Shown piece by piece: positions 22,282-33,290 of a DNA stretch of 33,290 bases. Location: positions 82,501 through 115,790 of the forward strand of contig JAJCZH010000018.1 of assembly GCA_029262515.1 (NCBI GenBank). The letters are read 5' to 3'. Origin of the DNA: Deltaproteobacteria bacterium (lineage in GTDB: Bacteria > Desulfobacterota > GWC2-55-46 > JADFVP01). The notes beneath the pieces are model-generated. The model worked only from the letters and a program-made list of their open reading frames with translations. It did not search any database and had not been told where the DNA came from. Within the stretch, counting starts at the first letter, position 1; the number at the start of each line of letters is the position of its first letter. A program made the translations under genes and the position numbers.

Positions 22282-25005
22282 TCAGAAGGTACCGGGTGAG
22301 GTCTCTTTCTTCGCCTCTTCAAACCATTCCTGAATATGATGTTTTCTAAGGGCGCTGAAGAAGTCGTTTTCTGCGTCTACGATCTCCCAGACCGGTATAG
22401 GGGTGTTCGATTCGAAGCCCTTGAAGATTATGTCTCCGCACCGGTAGAAGCCCTCTATTGTCTCTTTCCCCTTACGGCTCTCTATGCCGATCCAGAACTC
22501 CAGCGGGTCTACCGGAAGAAAGAATGTGCCCTGTATCGACGGGGCGAGTTCTTTTACAGCGATTATCTTTTTAAAGAACCTCTTTGCGCTCCTGTTATCT
22601 TTCATATAGGCCTCCAGGGCTTCCTCGCTGAGTGCCTGCCCCTTGTTATAGAGGTCTGTGCCGGAGCTTATCAGCCTTAGCGATGAGTACGGCTCTCCGT
22701 CCACAAGGCTCTTGAGGTCGTGCAGGAACTCATCCGACACGACCTTTGCCAGCGCTTCGGCGTTGGCCAGTTTTCTGCTCGCCACCATCTTCTCAAATGC
22801 CTTTTCGAGCTCGGGAGGCATCTTGATTGAGTAGGTCCTGTCTATATATATGTCGAACGGGTACTTGAGAGACTGGTTCTTGGTTCTCAGTTTCTCCGCA
22901 CGCAGCAGAACTTCGAGCTTGGCCCAGACGAACGAGTTCCTATAAGTGCCGCGAGCGGCTTCGTTGATCTTCTCGCCTATAGCCACCTGAACGGGACCGG
23001 TAAAATCGTCCATGCCCGCAATGACCATTGTCTCGGCCTTTGAACCGTACGAGATATAGAGCCCTGCCTCAAGCTCGCCCTTGATCGCCTCCTCGAGGTC
23101 ACGGCGGTAGGTATCTTCCAGGCGGTGCTCCTCTTCACCAAGGGTTATAAGGCCTATCTCCATGCCCTTTTTATCCTTGACCGCTTTTGCGGTAATCTCT
23201 TTGCGCCTCGCTTTCAGCCCTTCTTTTTTTTCTTTATACTTTGCGTGTATGTCGTCGAGCATCTCTTCGCCTTTGGTCGGCGGCAGCTTGGTTGCGAGTT
23301 GTTGACGGTAGTTGCGTATGACCTGCTGGATATCCTTAGCGAGGGCAACGAGGTATGTGAGGCTACCGGTGAAGATAGCGGCATCTCCCGGCATGTTGGT
23401 AAGCTTGATGCCGCGTTCGTCCTCGGAGAGTCCTGAGCCCGAGGCGTAGCGGCGTGCGGCCTTGAGTATCGGCAGGTAGAAGTTCTCTTTCATGTAGTCT
23501 GCCATGGCTATCTCTTTTATCTTCAGGGTCTTGCGGGAGAAGTCTTTCATATCTACGAAGAGCTGGCCTTCTTGCTGTAGCTCAAGTGTTTTGAGTATGG
23601 GGCGGGCATCGGTGGCGAAGCGGTAGAGGCTTCCACGGTTGTACTCGTCTTTGAGGGTAGTTGCTGAAAACTCTCCGCGCCTGTCGGCCAGATAACTTCG
23701 CATCAGCCCCCTGAAGCGCTCTATGTGCTCGTCGAGCTTGTAAGAGTAGTAACCCTCAACAAGTTCGTTGAGAGAAGTGACGGTCTCTTTCTTCGAACTC
23801 TTGAGCAGCCCCCCGAGCCTCGACTTTTTAAATGAACTGAGGTAAGCGTGAAAGGTCTCAATTATAACTCCTCTCTGTGAACCCCTTGGCACCTGTTTGT
23901 GCGCATTGTCGAGAGAGTTCGCCAGTTCGCCCATAGCCCTGGGGTCCGCAATCATGCGCGCTATCCGTTTGTCGTCGTCGTAGATAGTATGAAGTGTGGT
24001 CTGCGGTTCCATGTTGGGGGTGTCGAACTCCTTCATGTAGCACAGCGCATTGGCCCTGAAGTTGGCCACTTCCTTGTGCTGTTTAAGGGTATCGGTTGCC
24101 TCGCGGTCAGAGCGAATACGCTTGGTAGTAGAGTCTACCAGTGAAGAGAGGTTTGTGGTGGAGTCGTCTATCTCGGAAGCGAATGATGAGATTATCTGAA
24201 CGGAGTCGGTGTTGATGCCGTAGGGATTGAGAGCAACGGAATGCATATTGGAAGGAATGGATAAAAAGGCCTTGGGCACAGGTACGGTCTGTAGCAGTAC
24301 TTCAGTAAGAGGGTTGTAGGAGGGGGCGCATATATCGCTCAGTCGAGAGGAAATCTTTAAGAGCGTGTGGCGGATACATGTATGGAGCGCAAAGCCCACA
24401 GCCATATCGAGCTTATCGTAAGAGAAGCCTTTTAACCTGACTTCTTTGAGCTGCTCTTTTTTCTTTCTTATCGTTCTCATCATTGCAAGTATGAGAAGGT
24501 CTACCGTCTTTTCGCTCCCGCCTTGCTGCGCCTCATCCCGTACCGTCTTTTCAAACATATCGTCGAGCCAGTGCATGAAGCTTGTGCCGTACCCTTCGGG
24601 GCTGAGCCACTGAACAAGCATGCCTGCATCTACGAATGGGGTGGTGGCCAGTATCTCAATAGCGAGTTTCTTGGTTGAAGAGCTTTCGATGAAGATATCG
24701 GTTCTGTAGGTTTTGTCCTTTAGGTGAGCTGTAAACTTGACAAGGGGGCCAGACATCTTTACTGCACTGACCGGATCGTACCGCTTCGTCAGGAGCGCGA
24801 CGAGTCCCATAATGCAATCTTCTATTATGCTCTCGTCTTCGGCACCCATATGGTACGGTATCTTCAGCTCGGCAATCGACTCTCCATGCTTGAAGCGCAA
24901 CCCCTTAGGCTGGATCATCCACAGGCGTCCGTTGATTATATCGGTACGCTCTTTCAGTAGAGTATTAAAAAGAGATATCCGGTTACATCTGTAAGTTTCG
25001 GTCAT
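22282..25005 (-). CDS. Large protein of unknown function (907 residues)
   Basis: I do not recognise this protein. It has no signal peptide, no membrane segment, and no P-loop or other catalytic motif that I can name. The N-terminal 170 residues look mixed alpha/beta (KGLRFKHGESIAELKIPYHM, then a segment ending WLSPEGYGTSFMHWLDDMFE). The middle (about 300-560) is mainly helical. A charged coiled-coil stretch follows (about 585-640: KYKEKKEGLKARRKEITAKA). The C-terminal 250 residues are again mixed, with conspicuous aromatic segments (GTFFLPVDPLEFWIGIE, TPIPVWEIVDAENDFFSAL). Codon use resembles its neighbours, so recent transfer is not suggested. It is a single-gene unit divergent from the HEAT-repeat gene, with an inverted-repeat promoter region between them. 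Confidence 0.85.
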   Translation of the reverse strand: MTETYRCNRISLFNTLLKERTDIINGRLWMIQPKGLRFKHGESIAELKIPYHMGAEDESIIEDCIMGLVALLTKRYDPVSAVKMSGPLVKFTAHLKDKTYRTDIFIESSSTKKLAIEILATTPFVDAGMLVQWLSPEGYGTSFMHWLDDMFEKTVRDEAQQGGSEKTVDLLILAMMRTIRKKKEQLKEVRLKGFSYDKLDMAVGFALHTCIRHTLLKISSRLSDICAPSYNPLTEVLLQTVPVPKAFLSIPSNMHSVALNPYGINTDSVQIISSFASEIDDSTTNLSSLVDSTTKRIRSDREATDTLKQHKEVANFRANALCYMKEFDTPNMEPQTTLHTIYDDDKRIARMIADPRAMGELANSLDNAHKQVPRGSQRGVIIETFHAYLSSFKKSRLGGLLKSSKKETVTSLNELVEGYYSYKLDEHIERFRGLMRSYLADRRGEFSATTLKDEYNRGSLYRFATDARPILKTLELQQEGQLFVDMKDFSRKTLKIKEIAMADYMKENFYLPILKAARRYASGSGLSEDERGIKLTNMPGDAAIFTGSLTYLVALAKDIQQVIRNYRQQLATKLPPTKGEEMLDDIHAKYKEKKEGLKARRKEITAKAVKDKKGMEIGLITLGEEEHRLEDTYRRDLEEAIKGELEAGLYISYGSKAETMVIAGMDDFTGPVQVAIGEKINEAARGTYRNSFVWAKLEVLLRAEKLRTKNQSLKYPFDIYIDRTYSIKMPPELEKAFEKMVASRKLANAEALAKVVSDEFLHDLKSLVDGEPYSSLRLISSGTDLYNKGQALSEEALEAYMKDNRSAKRFFKKIIAVKELAPSIQGTFFLPVDPLEFWIGIESRKGKETIEGFYRCGDIIFKGFESNTPIPVWEIVDAENDFFSALRKHHIQEWFEEAKKETSPGTF

Positions 25006-25252: not shown

Positions 25253-26047
25253 ATGAGTACGACTAAGGAACAGTTATATACCGTTTTCACTAAGATATCC
25301 GGTGGTACCGTTAGCAGGGAAGAGGGTAGCATGCTTCTTAACGACTTGGTGAGAAGTGATGAGGCCGAGACCGTAAAGGAGCTTGAGTACCTGCTTGAGA
25401 ATCCGCCGCAGAATGTCCATAAAAAGACGGTCTTTCACACGATGGTTCTCGCCAGGAACAAGGCTTATATACCTTTGATCGCAAAGGCGCTTGATAACCA
25501 GGATGAGGAGCTTGTTGTTGTTGCGGCTGAAGAGCTCTCAAGGCTCCATACTGATGAGGCCGAAGGGTTGTTGCTGGCGCACCTCGATTCAGATGCTTAC
25601 CACACTAGAAAGGCCTCTGCAGAGGCCTTTGCGCAAGGCTTCGGGGCAAAAGGCATTCGGCTGCTAAAGCAGCATGTCCTGGAGAATACCGAGGCGCTCT
25701 TTCGTTACACCTCTGCTCTGGCGCTTCTTCATGCGGGCCATAATGGTATGACGGCTCTGATAGAGATTCTTTCCTGCGGTAAAGAGGGGCCGGTAAACTC
25801 TGTAGCTGAGGTATTGGTAAAGGCACCGGAAGACCTGCTGGCTAACGAGCTTCGGCAGTTGATAGACGTACTTATGCTTGCTGGGGACCGTGATGACCCG
25901 GTCTCTATCATCGGGCTTCTTAAGGTAATTTCCTCTCTTGGGGGAAGGGCTGCCAGCTATGAGGACTTTATTCTTGCTTTCGAGGACAACATCTCCGGCC
26001 TTGTCAGGGACGAGGTTGGACGGACTATGGCCGCTATTCGGGTCTGA
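25253..26047 (+). CDS. HEAT-repeat protein
   Basis: A 264-residue soluble protein built of helical hairpins typical of HEAT/armadillo repeats. Examples are ELVVVAAEELSRLHTDEAEG at about 85-105, YHTRKASAEAFAQGFGAKGI at about 112-132, and LFRYTSALALLHAGHNGMTA at about 147-167. There is no enzymatic motif, signal peptide or membrane segment. It is probably a scaffold or adaptor. Its 3' end overlaps the convergent TPR gene by 14 nt, so the two transcripts must overlap. It is divergent from the 907-residue gene. Confidence 0.8.
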   Translation: MSTTKEQLYTVFTKISGGTVSREEGSMLLNDLVRSDEAETVKELEYLLENPPQNVHKKTVFHTMVLARNKAYIPLIAKALDNQDEELVVVAAEELSRLHTDEAEGLLLAHLDSDAYHTRKASAEAFAQGFGAKGIRLLKQHVLENTEALFRYTSALALLHAGHNGMTALIEILSCGKEGPVNSVAEVLVKAPEDLLANELRQLIDVLMLAGDRDDPVSIIGLLKVISSLGGRAASYEDFILAFEDNISGLVRDEVGRTMAAIRV

Positions 26048-26762
26048 TGCGTACCGGTGAGCCGGTAGAGTAAAGCCTACCTAGCCCCTGTTTTGCGGCT
26101 TCTCGCGTTACAGGGTATCTGCTTGCAAGTTTGTAATTCCTGGCAGCCTCCTCTGTCCGTCCCATCAACTCCAGCGCCGTACCGGCTCCTAGTATAGCTT
26201 CCGCATACTCAGGCACATACTTAAGTGCTTGCTTGTAATCTGCGTAAGCCTTTGGTGCATTTCCTAAGTCTATATAGAGGTTGCCCCGTGCGTAGTAGGC
26301 TTTTATATGCAGTGGATCGAGTGCAAGCGCTGTATTGAACTCTTTAAGGGCCATGGCTGTAAGCCCCTTGGAGTGGTAGGCAACCGCCAGGTTGTTGTGC
26401 GCTTTTACATCATTCGGCTTTAACGATATTGTAATATTATACCGCCTGATTGCCTCGTCGATATCTCCAGTTACGTGTTTTATAGCACCTATGTTGAAGT
26501 GGGCGCCCGGAGTTGCAGGGTTGAGTTTGAGCGTTATGAAGTTCTCTTCAAGTGCACGGTCGAAATCGCCTGTGCCTACAAGTTCGGTAGCGAGGTTGTA
26601 GTGTGCCCTGTATTTCATCGGAGATTTGGCAACGACATCGCTCCACAGAGTTACGGAGTCGTCCCATACGGTATTCCTTTGATAGGCGAGAACAGCGTAT
26701 ACAGAGACGGCTAGAACCAATACGGCAGTGGTAAGGGGGGGTATTCTGTTGCTAAATGGCAT
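26034..26762 (-). CDS. Membrane-anchored TPR protein, apparently 5'-truncated relative to its family
   Basis: A 242-residue protein with one N-terminal membrane helix (about 10-28, LTTAVLVLAVSVYAVLAYQR) followed by about five TPR units. The junction QRNTVWDDSVTLWSDVVAKS is the one I know from large TMTC-like or glycosyltransferase-like TPR proteins, where it follows the last of about ten membrane helices. Here everything before that last helix is missing. The gene lies 90 nt downstream of the barrel gene on the same strand and lacks a strong ribosome binding site. It may be the last gene of the cytochrome/barrel cluster. Its stop region overlaps the HEAT gene by 14 nt. The TPR part probably faces the periplasm as an assembly scaffold (inference). 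Confidence 0.75.
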   Translation of the reverse strand: MPFSNRIPPLTTAVLVLAVSVYAVLAYQRNTVWDDSVTLWSDVVAKSPMKYRAHYNLATELVGTGDFDRALEENFITLKLNPATPGAHFNIGAIKHVTGDIDEAIRRYNITISLKPNDVKAHNNLAVAYHSKGLTAMALKEFNTALALDPLHIKAYYARGNLYIDLGNAPKAYADYKQALKYVPEYAEAILGAGTALELMGRTEEAARNYKLASRYPVTREAAKQGLGRLYSTGSPVRIRPE

Positions 26763-26852
26763 TGTGGCCGCCTATTACGGATGTATGGTATCAATTTATC
26801 GTCTTGATCTGTTCCGGCGCAGACAGGTTTCAGTACGGTTTATTATGAAAAG

Positions 26853-28802
26853 CTATCTCCAGTAAAAGCCGAACGACCTTGCGGCCGTGAGCATTAGCCT
26901 GGTCTCTACGGTCTCGCTGTTCTGAAAAGCTCTGTCTATGTAGGTGTACTCTGCGGTGAGAAGCCAGCTCCTGAGCTGATAGACCAGCTTGTTCTTTATC
27001 GATTTGGAATCCTCTTCCGACTCATCTGCTTCTTTATGACTCCAGAGCAGTTCGAGATCCCAGAACGAATTCATTGTAAGTCCTCGCTGGTAGGTGGTCT
27101 TAAAGAGCCTGGTTGTCGTATTCTGTTCTCCTTCTTTAAATGTGCTTTCATTTGTAGCATGATAGAAGTTACTCGCAAGGTTACCACGTAAAAAGATGCG
27201 TTCATGCGATATGGTGAAAACTTTATCGAGGCTAGTAGTGTAACCACTGAAGAAGTCGGAGAATTTATTGTAATCGATTCTGTACCTTATGGGTAGGGAT
27301 TGAATGTAATTGGTGGAAGCGCTAAAGTCTATTTTGGTCTTTTTTGTGTCGCTCGATACCGCCTTGGATTCTGATGTGGTGAAGTTATAACTACTGCTCA
27401 ATTCAACATATCTATTAAATGCCCGGTTCTGAGCTGAGAAGCTGTAGGATGTGCTTCTGTTCAATGTTCCTACTGATGACCTAGATGATGACCAGCTACC
27501 TGACGTGTTAAGCAGTAACAAGGGAACTACATTAATACCGGACAGGTTGCTGCTGACACTCTGCTCAAGGCCTCTGCCATCTTCATATATGTCGGACTGG
27601 GTCTCATTGTAACCTAATGAACCGGAGGCGCCAAAGCTTGCCCAGGAGTAGTTGTTTGAATAACTTGCAGTTGATGTAAGCCTGAAGTCCGTGCGGTCAT
27701 CAAGAGCTGTATTCGCAGTATCTATTGAGGTCGATGATTGTTGGCTGTAAGAGACGCTCTCAGTCAAACTGAGATGGTCCGTGGCACGGTAGGAGATGTT
27801 GGCTCCTGCAGTAATAGAGTCGGAGTCTCTTGAAGATGTCAGCGTATTGTTCTTATCTGTAGCTAACGATACGTTTGCTGAGGAAGTGATCCTGTCCGAA
27901 ATGTTATACCGCATGGCGCCGGCATAGTAGTGGCGCTCACTCGAATTTTCGTTTGATCCATCCGTCTCAACGCTAACAAAGCTATAAGCGTGGTTATGGC
28001 TGAAGATACGGCTGGGTGTGGAGTTGAGTGAAGTGTTCATGCCGATTACTGAACTCGAACTTCCACCTCCCTGGTCAGCTTTGGCGGCAGCAGCTGATAC
28101 GCTCAGTTTTGTGGTACGTGAGATATCTGTTTTGTTTATAAAGTTTGTCGAGAACTGGCTTGTGCTGGTGCCAGCGGTTCTGTTCTCGTATACGTTATAT
28201 TCATTTTCGAGTTTATTATCCGTTATTCCTATCTTTTTTTGTAATGTCAGGTCATATTCAGTGTCAACGCCATGGGTTCTATCATCTGTATGGTGATCGG
28301 TTTTGAGCGTGAAGATGGTCTTCGGTAATTTTCTGAAGGTTCCATACCAGTTTAGGCCGTAGGTAAATTTATTTCTCCATGTATCCGACCCAGCCGATGT
28401 GCTGGTATACCTGGTGTTATTGAAATACGTGGTAAGCGGTATGTTGGTTTTAGGTAGTATGGTGGTAGAGAGGTAGTAGTACCACGTATTGTTGGTCGTT
28501 TTGGTCTGGCCGGCATCGAAAGTTTTTCTCGAATAATGGAGCCCGGTATCGTATGTCATGAGCCAGCGCGAGACAATATGGCCAAGTGCGTCTAATGCGT
28601 ATTGTTGCTCAAAAGAGGTGCGTAGGTTTTCAAATGATGAAATCTTATTCTTAGTTGTATCTCTGTCATACTGGAAGTAGAGTCCGAAACGTAGGCTGTT
28701 GTTAAGGTACGGATCGACCTCTACAGCCCGCGTGGTCTCTGGCATCACAAACAGTATCGTCAGTATGACTATAGATACAAAAACCTGTACTGGTCTGGAC
28801 AT
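26853..28802 (-). CDS. Outer-membrane beta-barrel protein
   Basis: A 649-residue protein with a signal peptide (about 1-26, ending ETTRA). A mature part follows with alternating polar/hydrophobic, Ser/Thr/Asn/Tyr-rich strands through its whole length, ending in aromatic RSFGFYWR. This is typical of a large outer-membrane beta-barrel. I see no cysteine, no plug domain and no TonB box. It lies directly downstream of two cytochrome-related genes and two SUMF1-domain proteins. This makes a porin-like partner of c-type cytochromes, as in MtrB/PioB-type conduits, an attractive but unproven idea. Composition is more AT-rich than the housekeeping genes. The start has AGAGGG about ten bases upstream. 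Confidence 0.75.
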   Translation of the reverse strand: MSRPVQVFVSIVILTILFVMPETTRAVEVDPYLNNSLRFGLYFQYDRDTTKNKISSFENLRTSFEQQYALDALGHIVSRWLMTYDTGLHYSRKTFDAGQTKTTNNTWYYYLSTTILPKTNIPLTTYFNNTRYTSTSAGSDTWRNKFTYGLNWYGTFRKLPKTIFTLKTDHHTDDRTHGVDTEYDLTLQKKIGITDNKLENEYNVYENRTAGTSTSQFSTNFINKTDISRTTKLSVSAAAAKADQGGGSSSSVIGMNTSLNSTPSRIFSHNHAYSFVSVETDGSNENSSERHYYAGAMRYNISDRITSSANVSLATDKNNTLTSSRDSDSITAGANISYRATDHLSLTESVSYSQQSSTSIDTANTALDDRTDFRLTSTASYSNNYSWASFGASGSLGYNETQSDIYEDGRGLEQSVSSNLSGINVVPLLLLNTSGSWSSSRSSVGTLNRSTSYSFSAQNRAFNRYVELSSSYNFTTSESKAVSSDTKKTKIDFSASTNYIQSLPIRYRIDYNKFSDFFSGYTTSLDKVFTISHERIFLRGNLASNFYHATNESTFKEGEQNTTTRLFKTTYQRGLTMNSFWDLELLWSHKEADESEEDSKSIKNKLVYQLRSWLLTAEYTYIDRAFQNSETVETRLMLTAARSFGFYWR

Positions 28803-28947
28803 AATAGTTCAGCCCTCTCGAAGTGAAGCTCAAAAGTAGAACAAAAAAATAACTTTAGTGATCTATTGTTATCTGCGCGGGAAGGGTGAAAATACTGCGT
28901 CGATACATCTATTACCGTATTATATGTTGCTGAATGTATAACGGTAG

Positions 28948-28991
28948 CCGGAACGTATTGCCGCAACTGTTCTGTGCGTAATACGCTCCGG
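28948..28991. repeat. Long inverted repeat between the SUMF1 lipoprotein and barrel genes
   Basis: CCGGAACGTATT (28948-28959) pairs with AATACGCTCCGG (28980-28991), with one G-U. Inside the loop CGCA/TGCG can pair too. No T-run follows on either strand, so it is not a standard terminator. In the 208-nt gap it could act as an mRNA-processing or 3'-stabilising hairpin. A perfect -10 TATAAT on the minus strand near 28918-28924 lies just downstream and may start barrel transcription. Confidence 0.55.
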
Positions 28992-29010
28992 TAGTACTGT
29001 TGTAAAGTCG

Positions 29011-29853
29011 CTACTTATTCTTCTCCACGTCCTTTGCTGACCAGGCACACCTGAAACCCACATCATTGTAACCGCCTTTAGGCGGTGCGGCATTTCTGTA
29101 GGAGGTTCTCAGGTTAATCTGTAATGTGTAATGGCCGAGCCCGCCCCAGCCTCCGCCTCTTACGACCTTGTGCTTTTCTCCGTATGCCTCATCTGCAAAA
29201 TCATTACCCGGATACTGTTGGTACCAGTCCGAAGTCCACTCCCAGACGTTACCGGCCATATCGTATGCGCCATATGGGCTCTTGCCGTCTTCGTATTTGC
29301 CAACTGCCGTTGTTCCTCCCTGGAGCCCCATTGAGGTAGCCTTGTTCTTGTCGAACTCGTTACCCCACGGGAATTCTCTAGCGTCGGTACCACGGGCGGC
29401 TTTCTCCCATTCGGCTTCCGTAGGCAGCCGCTTGGTCTTCGAAGCGCAGTAATCGACCGCATCATCCCAGCTGATGTTACTAACCGGGTGGTCGCCTGTC
29501 CCTTCCGGGTAGGTTCCGGTCGCCCAGCTGCCGGCAATCCTGTGGCCTGTGGCGTCTACGAACTCTTTATAGTCCGCATTGGTTACCTCGTATTTGTCTA
29601 TATAGAATTCTTCTAGTGAAATCTTTCTGCTCGGCCTCTCATTTGCATACCATGGCCGCGCATTTCCATACTGAATTCCTTTGGCCGCATCATCAACCTT
29701 GTCGCTGCCCATTGTGAACTCGCCATTGGATACCTTGACCATGCCCGGAGGCGGCGGCACGGGCGCAGGTTTTGAGCATGCGGAGAGTAGTATAAGCGCG
29801 GCGAAAAAGAGTATAGAGAGGGTAACGTAACGTAAGTTGTAGATATTTTGCAT
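29011..29853 (-). CDS. SUMF1/FGE-domain lipoprotein without catalytic cysteines
   Basis: A 280-residue protein. The lipoprotein signal ends LILLSAC with the lipidated cysteine at 26, followed by a Pro-rich linker. A full formylglycine-generating-enzyme/sulfatase-modifying-factor domain comes next: MVKVSNGEFTMGSD, YIDKYEVTNADYKEFVDATG, RLPTEAEWEKAARG, EFPWGNEF, YDMAGNVWEWTSDW, VVRGGGW and GFRCAW. The cysteine pair that FGE enzymes carry after RGGS is absent (RGGGWGGLGHYT), so formylglycine chemistry is unlikely. It is probably a C-type-lectin-like binding or structural module. The ATG at 29853 is chosen because GGAGG lies six bases upstream, inside the longer open frame. It is paralogous to the next gene upstream. 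Confidence 0.9.
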   Translation of the reverse strand: MQNIYNLRYVTLSILFFAALILLSACSKPAPVPPPPGMVKVSNGEFTMGSDKVDDAAKGIQYGNARPWYANERPSRKISLEEFYIDKYEVTNADYKEFVDATGHRIAGSWATGTYPEGTGDHPVSNISWDDAVDYCASKTKRLPTEAEWEKAARGTDAREFPWGNEFDKNKATSMGLQGGTTAVGKYEDGKSPYGAYDMAGNVWEWTSDWYQQYPGNDFADEAYGEKHKVVRGGGWGGLGHYTLQINLRTSYRNAAPPKGGYNDVGFRCAWSAKDVEKNK

Positions 29854-29932
29854 CCATTTCCTCCAAAGCATTGCCTGGTTTGACTGTTTAAGGCTGTAAG
29901 TTCGATTTATATAGTATTACTGCCGTGCGCCG

Positions 29933-30982
29933 TTATTTGGCATCGCTGGCGCACCTGAACCCGAAGTTGTTATTCTTTGTCCAGGGGTTGAAGAAAATTC
30001 TGTTGTAGGTAGGTGCGCTTATGCCACACTTGTAATAGGTACAGTCATACCATGAACCGCCGCGCACAACCCGTACGATCTCTCCGTAGTTCTCATCCGG
30101 GTGGTTGTTGCCCGGATACTGTTTGAACCAGTCTCCCGTCCATTCAAAGACGTTGCCCGCCATGTCGTGAAGCCCGTAAGGGCTGACGCCATCGTTAAAG
30201 GAGCCGACCTCCATGGTGTCTTCATTGCCGAGTTGAGGCGTGTTGCCCTTGAAGCGGGAAAACTTGTCGCCCCAGGGGAAGGTACGCGCATCCGAGCCGC
30301 GAGCAGCCTTCTCCCATTCGGGCTCCGTCGGAAGTCTCTGGTTGTCCCATTTGCAAAAGTCGTTGGCATCGAACCATGTTACATATACCGCCGGGTGATC
30401 CAGTTTTCCTTCCGGTATCATACCGCCTGTCCAGCTCATCGGAGGTTTGCGCCCGGTTGCATCGACGAAGGCCTTGTACCGTCGGTTGGTTACTTCATAT
30501 TTATCTATTCTGAAAGCGGCCAAATTCCTTTTGTGCTCCGGCTGGCTTTTAGGCCACCAGTTGTCGCTACCCATGGTGAACTCCCCGGCGGGAACAAGGG
30601 CCGACTCTTTCTGCTCTTTCAGGCTGCGCGGGACATTTTGACCGAAACGCGGATCTTTGCTGAACTGTCCCTTGACCCCTTTCTGCTCTGCTGCTGCGTA
30701 CTGGAGCAGTTCCTTATCTTCGTACGGGTCTGCGTAGCGGTCGTTGATTGCCAGAAACTCGTCACTGAGTCCGGGGCCGTGGCATGCTACGCAAGAATCG
30801 TCCCGTGTATAGTCAATAGAGTAGCTTCTTTCCGAGGAGTGGCACTTGGTGCAGTCGGGCTCTCCGGTTAACGGGTTGTAGTCTTCCGGGGCCGCTAAAG
30901 CGCTGGACAAGGGTATCAGCACCGAAAAAATAGTAGCGGCTGCAGTTGTCAGCAGGTAATGTTTGAAGCGATATATAGTCAT
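29933..30982 (-). CDS. Diheme c-type cytochrome fused to a SUMF1/FGE domain
   Basis: A 349-residue exported protein. The signal peptide ends ALA at about residue 30. Two heme-binding motifs follow in a short domain: C44-TKC-H48 and C64-VAC-H68 (DDSCVACHGPG). A linker of about 55 residues leads to a SUMF1/FGE domain (about 128-349) with SALVPAGEFTMGSD, FRIDKYEVTNRRYKAFVDAT, RLPTEPEWEKAARG, TFPWGDKF, LHDMAGNVFEWTGDW and GFRCAS. Unlike its lipoprotein paralogue it keeps two cysteines with a four-residue gap (C314, C319) right after RGGSW, recalling the copper-binding pair of true FGE. Their distance from GGS is one residue longer than I recall for FGE. Functions to consider are a periplasmic redox enzyme receiving electrons through the hemes, or a cytochrome with a binding module. 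Confidence 0.9.
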   Translation of the reverse strand: MTIYRFKHYLLTTAAATIFSVLIPLSSALAAPEDYNPLTGEPDCTKCHSSERSYSIDYTRDDSCVACHGPGLSDEFLAINDRYADPYEDKELLQYAAAEQKGVKGQFSKDPRFGQNVPRSLKEQKESALVPAGEFTMGSDNWWPKSQPEHKRNLAAFRIDKYEVTNRRYKAFVDATGRKPPMSWTGGMIPEGKLDHPAVYVTWFDANDFCKWDNQRLPTEPEWEKAARGSDARTFPWGDKFSRFKGNTPQLGNEDTMEVGSFNDGVSPYGLHDMAGNVFEWTGDWFKQYPGNNHPDENYGEIVRVVRGGSWYDCTYYKCGISAPTYNRIFFNPWTKNNNFGFRCASDAK

Positions 30983-31074
30983 TTATTCTCTTGATTAAAT
31001 TATTTTTTTGGTTATTGTGGTTATATCAGCCTGAAAGTTGTTTCTTCAGGTTTTGCTGCGTAGGTGGCCGGCTG

Positions 31075-31599
31075 CTACTTTGCCACCTCTTTCGCGCGCC
31101 CTTCCTCTGCAAGCTGCCTAATATAAGCAAGCACATCCCAGCGTTCGGCCTCACTCAGTATGCCTTTCCATTCCGGCATGTTCATAGCCTCTCCTCCGAC
31201 CTCTTTTTTGACCCCTTCGCTGATCGATTCGAAGAGTTCCTCATCCGTTTTTTTCATCCTCTTGCGGTCATGTACAAAGTCTGCCGGATGGGGAGAGATC
31301 GCCATGCCGACGGGTCCGTCACCGAGCCCACTGTTTCCGTGGCAGAAGTGGCAGTGTCTCTCGTATACTACTTTCCCTGCTACGGCATCACCGGAAGGTC
31401 GGGTTGCAGCAGACGGAGCCTGCGTCTTTGTAGCGCTCTCTACGGGAGATGCGGGTGCCTTGGAGCTTCCGTCATCCGTGCCGTTGGAGCAGGCGGTAAG
31501 GAGCAGCAGTACGGCGCATAGCATAAATCCACGAGGCGTACGCCATTTGTGGTTACGGCTGTTTTCCTTCTGCCTATGATTTCTCTCGATTTGCATCAT
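31075..31599 (-). CDS. Monoheme cytochrome c lipoprotein
   Basis: A 174-residue protein with a long basic N-terminus, a hydrophobic segment and a lipobox (LLLLTAC, lipid cysteine about 37). A Ser/Ala/Pro/Thr-rich linker and a class I cytochrome c domain follow: C83-HFC-H87, GNSGLGDGP, a PADF segment, and the axial-methionine region AMNMPEWKGILSEAERWDVL. It is membrane-anchored and faces the periplasm. The start is uncertain: ATG at 31599 or 31596, TTG at 31608, or a much shorter form from 31524 (MLCAVLL). It lies 29 nt after the foldase gene, so it shares its transcript. It is probably a soluble-domain electron carrier for the cluster. Confidence 0.9.
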   Translation of the reverse strand: MMQIERNHRQKENSRNHKWRTPRGFMLCAVLLLLTACSNGTDDGSSKAPASPVESATKTQAPSAATRPSGDAVAGKVVYERHCHFCHGNSGLGDGPVGMAISPHPADFVHDRKRMKKTDEELFESISEGVKKEVGGEAMNMPEWKGILSEAERWDVLAYIRQLAEEGRAKEVAK

Positions 31600-31628
31600 A
31601 TCGCTCAACGAGTCACTTGTTACGGTTA

Positions 31629-32651
31629 TTAGTAAAGGTCTTTTACAAGTATTTCGATCTTTGCATCCTTACGGAGCTCTTTAAGCCACTCTTTGTTGTT
31701 TCTGTCGTACTCTCTCTTCTCGAGCTGCTCTTTAAGGTTTTTATGGTTAAGGTTTTCAAACTTCTTCTGTTTGGTCGGTGTTGAGTCAACAAGCTGGACA
31801 AGATGGTAGCCGTAGATAGTCATTACCGGTTCGCTGATCTCGCCTTTTTTAAGCGCGGAGGCCGCATGGTCGATCTCTTCAAGCAGGCTGCCTTCATGAG
31901 CCCAGCCCATGTCGCCGCCGTTGGCCGCATTGGGCCCCTGAGAGTGCTTCTTTGCAAGTTCGCTAAACTCGGTACCGCTACGTGCCTCTTTCAGAATTTC
32001 AAGGGCTCTTTCACGGGTCTCGTTCCATACCTTAGGCCCGCCGGAAGGGTCGCTCTTGAGTAGAATATTGTTAAGCCTGATTCTCTTCGGCTCTTTGAAC
32101 TTGTGAAGGTTGTCCTTATAGTATTCCTTCATGTAAGCCGTGTCTACGGTCTTGGCGGCTTTCTCCAGGTGAGCTTTTTTCATGGCCTCTTTTTGAGCGC
32201 GAATTACCAGCGTTTTATTGAGATCCTCTCTGAGTTGCGCCATTGTCATATCACTTGCCTTAAGCACTTTCTTGAGTGTCTCGCCCTTGGGCAGCTTACC
32301 CTTGAGGCTCTCAATCTTGGAGTCAATCTCCGCCTTCGGAGCTTTATGCTGATTCTTCCGCTTGGCGTCCTTGTAGATAAGCTCAACATCTATCAGCTGA
32401 TCGAGCGCCTTTTGCCTTGTCTGCTCGTACCGTTTTTCCGATACCGATTTGTGCAGCGAGGCATACGGCAACAGTGTGGTTACCGCGCTGTCGAGTTCCA
32501 TGCGCGTAATCTTTATTCCGTCTACCGTTGCAATGGGTTCGAGTTTATACGGGTCTACTCCCGCAGAAGCTGTTGAAATGGTAAAGGCGCTCAGTATAAG
32601 AAGAGCGAGGGTAATTGTTAGGTTGTGAAACCTGTTAGTTATTAGAGACAT
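31629..32651 (-). CDS. Parvulin-type peptidyl-prolyl isomerase (SurA/PpiC-like)
   Basis: A 340-residue exported foldase. The signal peptide ends about residue 30 (ISTASA). The N-terminal SurA-like helical chaperone region (about 40-180) is rich in Lys and Glu. The parvulin rotamase domain follows (about 190-290: RIRLNNILLKSD, FSELAKKHSQGPNAANGGDM, GEISEPVMTIYGYHLVQLVD), and then a basic C-terminal helix. It would assist folding of outer-membrane or periplasmic proteins. Foldases of this type are often encoded beside multiheme cytochrome genes, and here it heads the cytochrome/barrel unit. GGAGG lies about ten bases before the ATG. The lipobox is absent, so it is soluble in the periplasm. Confidence 0.92.
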   Translation of the reverse strand: MSLITNRFHNLTITLALLILSAFTISTASAGVDPYKLEPIATVDGIKITRMELDSAVTTLLPYASLHKSVSEKRYEQTRQKALDQLIDVELIYKDAKRKNQHKAPKAEIDSKIESLKGKLPKGETLKKVLKASDMTMAQLREDLNKTLVIRAQKEAMKKAHLEKAAKTVDTAYMKEYYKDNLHKFKEPKRIRLNNILLKSDPSGGPKVWNETRERALEILKEARSGTEFSELAKKHSQGPNAANGGDMGWAHEGSLLEEIDHAASALKKGEISEPVMTIYGYHLVQLVDSTPTKQKKFENLNHKNLKEQLEKREYDRNNKEWLKELRKDAKIEILVKDLY

Positions 32652-33028: not shown

Positions 33029-33072
33029 AAAAAAAGAGGCTGACCGTTTGTACCGGTCAGCCTCTTTTTTTT
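33029..33072. terminator. Bidirectional intrinsic terminator
   Basis: A-rich run, AGAGGCTGACCG, short loop, CGGTCAGCCTCT, then eight T. The stem has about 12 pairs extended by A-T pairs. In the minus direction it ends the cytochrome gene at 33110 and separates it from the foldase cluster. Confidence 0.9.
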
Positions 33073-33109: not shown

Positions 33110-33290
33110 TTACTTCTCGTGACAAGTTCTGCAAACTCCAGAACCGGTATTACCCTCAACTCTCCTGAGGAAGAGGCCGTTGGACTCAAACGCGCCGCCC
33201 CAGGTGGACTCTACTTCAGTCCAGCTCTTGTTGTTGAAGTGAGGATCATGACAGGAACCGCACTCTACGTTACCGGCTCTGAGCAGATCG
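33110..33290 (-). CDS. C-terminal end of a multiheme c-type cytochrome
   Basis: Only the last 59 residues are in the window; the gene continues beyond the right edge. Two heme motifs are visible: CGSCHDPH (in RAGNVECGSCHDPHFNNKSW) and CRTCHEK at the very C-terminus. The pattern SCHDPH followed about 45 residues later by a CxxCH at the end is typical of paired-CxxCH multiheme cytochromes in dissimilatory metal- or sulfur-respiring bacteria. The number of hemes cannot be told. The strong terminator at 33029-33072 follows, so it is a separate transcript from the foldase gene although on the same strand. Confidence 0.9.
   Translation of the reverse strand, partial: DLLRAGNVECGSCHDPHFNNKSWTEVESTWGGAFESNGLFLRRVEGNTGSGVCRTCHEK

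Follow-up and report, generated by a model that had tools for sequence, protein, structure and literature searches.

A SUMF1-containing foldase, cytochrome and barrel operon beside an OmcE-like cytochrome gene: a candidate folding and export module in a Deltaproteobacteria genome

A 33,290-nucleotide stretch of a Deltaproteobacteria genome (assembly GCA_029262515.1, contig JAJCZH010000018.1, positions 82,501 to 115,790; hereafter the window) carries six minus-strand genes in series for a periplasmic peptidyl-prolyl isomerase (PPIase), a monoheme cytochrome lipoprotein, a diheme cytochrome fused to a SUMF1 domain of the formylglycine-generating enzyme (FGE) type, a SUMF1-fold lipoprotein, a 649-aa outer-membrane beta-barrel and a membrane-anchored tetratricopeptide-repeat (TPR) protein, with an OmcE-like cytochrome gene just upstream. 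This operon probably, though far from securely, supplies folding, export and wiring to an extracellular cytochrome system of the OmcE/Uet type that is equipped with a SUMF1 redox module. The SUMF1 block is the new part, and the remainder matches a known cluster type.

Gene content and conservation of the locus

The host genome measures 2.5 Mb and is 98% complete, and the end of the window coincides with the end of its contig (C18). An earlier note, made from the sequence alone, had described six genes in this order at 26034-32651, and all six open reading frames (ORFs) are present there. Its domain calls agree with Pfam matches and lipobox patterns (LTAC and LSAC being pattern-search matches), its barrel with an AlphaFold2 model of 32 strands, and its upstream multiheme cytochrome with a C-terminal fragment holding two CXXCH motifs, whose relatives are tetraheme and OmcE-like. 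The features of the locus are as follows.

33110..33289, minus strand: tetraheme OmcE-like cytochrome, C-terminal fragment with two CXXCH, cut by the contig end (ORF; relatives)
33029..33071, minus strand: terminator-like hairpin 3' of the cytochrome gene, 18 pairs and a T tail (terminator scan, sequence)
31629..32651, minus strand: SurA/PpiC-type periplasmic PPIase (Pfam Rotamase 2.6e-21, SurA_N_3 1.3e-12)
31075..31608, minus strand: monoheme class-I type cytochrome c lipoprotein, one CXXCH (Pfam Cytochrom_C 5.7e-11; lipobox-like LTAC)
29933..30982, minus strand: diheme c-type N-terminus (two CXXCH) and FGE/SUMF1 domain with a CX4C pair (Pfam FGE-sulfatase 2.4e-54)
29011..29871, minus strand: SUMF1-fold lipoprotein without the cysteine pair (Pfam FGE-sulfatase 1.1e-57; lipobox-like LSAC)
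26853..28802, minus strand: 649-aa outer-membrane beta-barrel, 32 predicted strands (AlphaFold2 model; best PDB match 6r2q_B)
26034..26762, minus strand: membrane-anchored TPR protein (Pfam TPRs; N-terminal hydrophobic anchor by eye)
25253..26047, plus strand: convergent HEAT-repeat gene, a conserved neighbour that marks the cluster end and is no proposed working part (Pfam HEAT_2 4.6e-07)

The gaps from the PPIase through the TPR gene are 20, 92, 61, 208 and 90 bp. The tetraheme cytochrome gene is probably a transcription unit apart from this operon, since the 18-pair hairpin (33071-33029) and 458 bp lie between it and the PPIase gene. The terminator scan returned seven sites against a shuffle mean of 9.2, which is no excess, and the six other sites have 5-7 pairs.

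Relatives were taken from other genomes and from 27 titled records (13 NC_groundwater; most Deltaproteobacteria, three Nitrospirae). Complete clusters run in the order triheme c7-type lipoprotein, NHL beta-propeller, tetraheme cytochrome, PPIase, monoheme cytochrome, diheme-SUMF1 protein, (in many) a spermine-synthase-like membrane protein, SUMF1 lipoprotein, barrel, TPR protein and convergent HEAT gene. The co-occurrence in other genomes expected by the earlier note is thus borne out, and six unrelated neighbours are excluded, because the order recurs in many genomes beyond chance. As a remedy for genes hidden by greedy ORF calling (for example the tetraheme gene at locus L030 and the monoheme gene at L038), tblastn was rerun over the window and the 27 titled-record loci, all selected for encoding a diheme-SUMF1 protein. 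Among these 28 loci the SUMF1 lipoprotein was matched in 28, the monoheme cytochrome in 24, the PPIase in 18, and the barrel, TPR protein and tetraheme cytochrome in 17 each; the HEAT gene was found at 13. The tblastn counts take the best match anywhere in a locus and, for the TPR and SUMF1 proteins, include cross-matches (the SUMF1-lipoprotein query also matches the fusion, e.g. at L051 and L060); contig ends truncate many of the loci, and tblastn missed the barrel that phmmer had labelled at L048. Loci L022-L041 and L042-L068 overlap partly in source genome.

A tetraheme cytochrome gene lies upstream of the PPIase gene, within ~2.2 kb, at all 15 loci that have a PPIase and whose upstream flank reaches 500 bp or more (the window and 14 of the 27; the other 13 have no PPIase or too little flank). 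The triheme and NHL genes of the present genome stand in the first 2.8 kb of another of its contigs, C17, and its cluster is therefore probably complete across the C17-C18 assembly gap. In many relatives, as at L024:11698-13281, the spermine-synthase-like protein is encoded between two SUMF1 genes; it is absent from the window. At 22282-25005 the minus strand of the window encodes a protein of 907 aa that neither Pfam nor NCBIfam matches and that adjoins the HEAT gene in several relatives.

The tetraheme OmcE-like cytochrome

The cytochrome fragment is 78% identical to the tetraheme cytochrome of a relative (L038:14641-15531), and the full-length protein of that relative matches PDB entries 7tfs at 4.4e-18 and 9yuq_N at 1e-13. 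Although titled simply 'Cytochrome c' in the PDB, 7tfs is taken here to be OmcE, the Geobacter nanowire cytochrome. In an alignment, the relatives share four CXXCH and their flanking motifs (CxFCHTPH, CxSCHDG, NDHP, SCHxxH and CxxCHxK) with the OmcE-like proteins of Geobacter-like genomes, and the window copy retains two of the four CXXCH. When the 7tfs fragment was searched against 395 genomes of the phylum, 46 matched at 1e-12. Elsewhere, NHL proteins and a probable barrel of ~660 or ~750 aa are often encoded near OmcE-like genes.

The present genome holds further genes of this kind on other contigs: a tandem pair of OmcE-like cytochromes near probable cytochrome-maturation genes, judged by eye (contig C26, L098:9229-11734), a single OmcE-like cytochrome (C23, L100:9475-10479), and an 11-heme cytochrome with an OmcE-like part that adjoins NHL and 4-, 6- and 7-heme genes (C20, L101:8984-11221).

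The predicted 32-strand barrel

The 649-aa protein has no family match in Pfam or NCBIfam. Its AlphaFold2 model, built from a 16-sequence alignment (mean pLDDT 86.7), comprises 32 strands of 13-20 residues joined by turns of 2-10 residues, with no plug domain. The top Foldseek match is the Mtr-complex barrel 6r2q_B (E 1.4e-10, TM about 0.29), which is also the best VIA-align match (Z 17.4, 450 residues, root-mean-square deviation 12.2); the remaining VIA-align rows are mostly beta-barrels, plus one apolipoprotein B row at Z 16.4. If the barrel is closed, simple geometry gives a backbone diameter near 58 A, and its predicted 32 strands lie above the at least 20 of porin-type barrels. Chain B of 6r2q is presumably MtrB. 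Like MtrB, which has 26 strands, the window protein is a large barrel, but with more predicted strands.

The barrel is present in 35 of 59 relatives, and by hand count a SUMF1 gene adjoins it in 31 of them; two exceptions (G002, G030) are cut by contig ends, and two (G053, G058) have distant barrels without SUMF1. A profile of the barrel matched nine of the 395 phylum genomes, all in the class of the host, and these nine also match, anywhere in the genome, the SUMF1 profile (17 of 395) and the OmcE-like search (46 of 395). Kinship explains part of this co-occurrence, as all nine belong to one class. Barrels beside OmcE-like genes in Nitrospirae-labelled genomes are homologous to the window barrel (profile E 8e-18, 568 columns). 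The ~660-aa barrels beside OmcE-like genes in other families match it with a probability of 92.8 (E 4e-07, 592 columns), which is suggestive of a relationship, and gave no profile match to the Nitrospirae or the Geobacter-like barrels. Because the barrel profile is confined to nine genomes of one class, a wider homology is suggested by profile-profile scores only. The 748-806-aa proteins of Geobacter-like genomes were rejected as homologues, the match spanning only 100 N-terminal columns with a probability of 61.

The fold invites comparison with porin-cytochrome conduits of the Mtr/PCC type, in which the barrel would be a fixed sheath round small cytochromes and would export nothing. Such a conduit is possible but doubtful here. 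It would account for the Mtr-complex barrel as top fold match, for the short turns and missing plug domain, and for the heme proteins encoded next door. However, a periplasmic cytochrome of ~8-10 hemes beside the barrel, as in porin-cytochrome systems, is missing: each cluster heme protein has 1-5 CXXCH, save for a 7-heme protein at L034/L055 and L056, and the locus encodes no decaheme-type partner. Moreover, a PPIase and an NHL protein accompany the barrel, as in export-type nanowire clusters. The earlier proposal of one electron-conduit or redox-assembly system thus survives in that the genes are a conserved unit, in which a large barrel of Mtr type stands beside an extracellular-type cytochrome, but needs amendment. 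The unit is larger than six genes, adding the tetraheme OmcE-like cytochrome, the NHL propeller and the triheme lipoprotein; its cytochrome-SUMF1 block is separable, standing without the barrel in other families, and the PPIase and barrel occur without SUMF1 at L134 and L135; and, as no ~10-heme plug like that of classical conduits accompanies the small heme proteins, a system that assembles and exports a wire-type cytochrome explains the locus no less well than a conduit does.

Likeness to known systems

The closest counterpart, known from 'Ca. Tenderia electrophaga' and some Gallionella, is the Uet (undecaheme electron transfer) cluster, which is described as comprising the tetraheme cytochrome UetA, the PPIase UetB, the barrel UetC, the triheme UetDEG, the NHL proteins UetHI and the undecaheme UetJ (PMC10734462). 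A TPR gene of 'Ca. Tenderia' is apparently cotranscribed with triheme cytochromes (PMC5371394). As in Uet so described, the tetraheme cytochrome (in the window a fragment), PPIase and barrel are encoded together, and NHL and triheme genes are found in the clusters of relatives and on contig C17. In contrast to the described Uet parts, a single triheme gene is present where Uet has three, no undecaheme gene is found in clusters with full flanks (an 11-heme cytochrome lies by an NHL gene on contig C20), and SUMF1 proteins, which do not appear in the Uet descriptions consulted, are present. The cluster is called Uet-like because it has no undecaheme gene and the likeness was drawn from a published parts list rather than from sequences.

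A looser match is the osc operon, the companion of OmcS in G. sulfurreducens, whose description assigns folding to OscH, secretion to OscEFG and morphology to OscD (PMC13194489). By its locus number, the spermidine synthase gene GSU2502 falls between omcT and GSU2501 (PMC10599522). The likeness lies in the list of functions and in the spermine-synthase-like gene inside the cluster of relatives, comparable to GSU2502 in the omcS region, whereas OmcS has six hemes and the osc descriptions consulted mention no SUMF1 protein. OscH is presumably a PPIase. The combination of beta-propeller, PPIase and large cytochrome in one operon has also been reported from partner bacteria of anaerobic methanotrophic archaea (PMC5539420).

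In four Geobacter-like genomes (G334, G119, G405 and G206, the genus judged by OmcE similarity), a 748-806-aa protein that is a barrel by eye adjoins the OmcE-like gene at 4/4 loci and an NHL gene is present at 2/4, where ORF calling may hide others. These loci differ in having 8- to 10-heme cytochromes upstream, in carrying no PPIase or SUMF1 label within the stretch, and in the weak similarity of their barrels to that of the window. A PPIase locus in Geobacter-like L119 and L124 was considered as osc and rejected, the cytochrome being OmcZ-like with an S8 protease next door; we take these to be OmcZ and its protease. At L118, L120, L123 and L127, also Geobacter-like, PPIase, NHL and 4-, 7- and 3-heme genes cluster beside genes that, from sequence and general knowledge, are presumably of the type II secretion/type IV pilus kind.

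The earlier note knew of no conduit with this SUMF1 layout, and no SUMF1 or formylglycine protein tied to an electron-transfer cluster was found among the matches listed, a survey with most subscription literature, including the primary Uet and Osc papers, outside its scope. The parts besides SUMF1 nevertheless match the published Uet type and, loosely, osc/OmcS, so the cluster is not a new kind of conduit.

The cytochrome-SUMF1 block and its cysteine pair

The diheme-SUMF1 protein shares with FGE the domain and the CX4C cysteine pair, and differs in its two fused c-heme motifs. After removal of identical sequences, the FGE loop reads GGSWxDCxxxxC in 30 of 30 diheme fusions, whereas only two of 34 heme-less SUMF1 proteins have CX4C, both being fusions cut at contig ends. 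C314 and C319 are invariant across 20 aligned rows, and the corresponding loop of the window SUMF1 lipoprotein is GGGWGGLGHY. Seven FGE-domain proteins encoded elsewhere, two of them in this genome, have no CX4C in the loop, which was recognised in just five. In a phmmer alignment the pair coincides with the cysteine pair of bacterial FGE 6muj, presumably the Streptomyces enzyme. The active pair of human FGE is Cys336-Cys341, as given in PMC4505483. The CX4C of the fusions is probably in the FGE active-site register, short of proven because a profile alignment to human FGE shifts it by one CX4C step. No cysteine geometry is claimed from the structure model of the fusion, since its mean pLDDT is 56.3.

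The block appears to be a cassette inserted between PPIase and barrel, since genome G053 encodes NHL protein, tetraheme cytochrome, PPIase and barrel consecutively without SUMF1 (L135) and has the cytochrome-SUMF1 block on another contig (L037). Stand-alone mini-operons of monoheme, diheme-SUMF1 and SUMF1 genes, with further SUMF1 genes in some and no barrel, occur at L035, L036, L039 and L040 (family f4 and others).

This independence is consistent with a different role, in which the diheme-SUMF1 protein is an FGE-type copper enzyme that uses its hemes as an electron wire to modify a secreted client, be it the barrel, the tetraheme cytochrome or some other protein, and the block is a maturation system that serves the nanowire cluster here by chance. 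We consider this unlikely. The strict confinement of CX4C to the fusions and its alignment with 6muj favour such an enzyme, and oxygen chemistry is possible, as PF00115 oxidase-family genes occur in 12 of 12 genomes tested, although this family also covers NO reductases. Against it, the profile alignment to human FGE sets the pair off by one CX4C step, and the fusion model is too poor for the residues to be placed. The present genome has no PF00884 sulfatase match (none was found in four of the nine genomes searched), so sulfatase activation is rejected as the SUMF1 role here. The labelled cluster proteins lack CxPxR except in one fusion ORF, where it probably lies in an over-extended N-terminus. 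Least probable is a structural role as a periplasmic collar under the giant barrel, like that of GldK/PorK, the SUMF1-fold lipoprotein forming a ring round the channel of type IX secretion: a SUMF1-fold lipoprotein does adjoin a giant barrel and the NCBIfam GldK model matches both SUMF1 proteins, but at 76.7 and 90.8 bits, far under the cut-off of 350 and below egtB/SenA, so that the match shows a shared domain only and type IX membership is rejected, and a collar would leave the hemes and the cysteine pair unexplained.

Proposed function

If the operon serves folding, export and wiring in a system of the OmcE/Uet type, the upstream tetraheme cytochrome would be its extracellular product, possibly forming filaments. 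The PPIase would fold this cytochrome in the periplasm, and the barrel would be its outer-membrane portal and anchor, with the NHL propeller, triheme lipoprotein and TPR protein docking, scaffolding or feeding it on the periplasmic side. The monoheme lipoprotein, diheme-SUMF1 protein and SUMF1 lipoprotein may together act as a redox module on the periplasmic side of the barrel mouth, relaying electrons between the portal and the periplasm, and the cysteine pair may oxidise or modify a client. Electrons could flow inwards, coupled to oxygen respiration as proposed for Uet, or be released. In a bolder version, to which we give little credence, the diheme-SUMF1 protein would be a copper enzyme of a new, electron-wired class. 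Its Cu(I) bis-thiolate site, of FGE type, would be reduced or oxidised through the protein's own c-hemes and the monoheme lipoprotein; at the outer-membrane portal the enzyme would modify or oxidatively lock the exported cytochrome or the barrel, so that maturation of the nanowire would be tied to the wire's redox state.

Several observations weigh against the export proposal. Because the window copy of the cytochrome is truncated, its four hemes are taken from relatives, and the hairpin points to cytochrome and operon not sharing one transcript. The pTM of the barrel model is just 0.59 and its Foldseek TM-scores are about 0.3, and the likeness to 'Ca. Tenderia' Uet and G. sulfurreducens Osc is by description only. 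Family f4 and some other families carry the SUMF1 block but no barrel: 8/9 f4 genomes have a SUMF1 match, 9/9 are barrel-less, and an OmcE-like match at 1e-12 was found in 0/3 f4 genomes searched, so the block is not nanowire-specific. Arrangements also vary. In the complete genome G022 (L024) the NHL gene is directly followed by the PPIase gene, with no room for a tetraheme gene. Two Nitrospirae-labelled metagenome-assembled genome loci (L054, L062), which carry NHL, OmcE-like, barrel, NHL, cytochrome, diheme-SUMF1 and SUMF1 genes, have no PPIase by tblastn, and at L057 the cytochrome-SUMF1 genes are partly inverted, with PPIase and barrel both absent.

Significance

The locus bears on the question of how nanowires made of cytochromes pass through the outer membrane and become attached to it. 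It offers a minimal set for testing, with a foldase, a tetraheme OmcE-like cytochrome and a barrel of 32 predicted strands encoded together at a conserved site. The lineages concerned also encode enzymes of the heme-copper oxidase family. Members of the SUMF1 family have so far been studied as oxygen-dependent cysteine oxidases and sulfoxide synthases, and the heme-fused SUMF1 domain, which has the cysteine pair of FGE, points to one that is redox-coupled.

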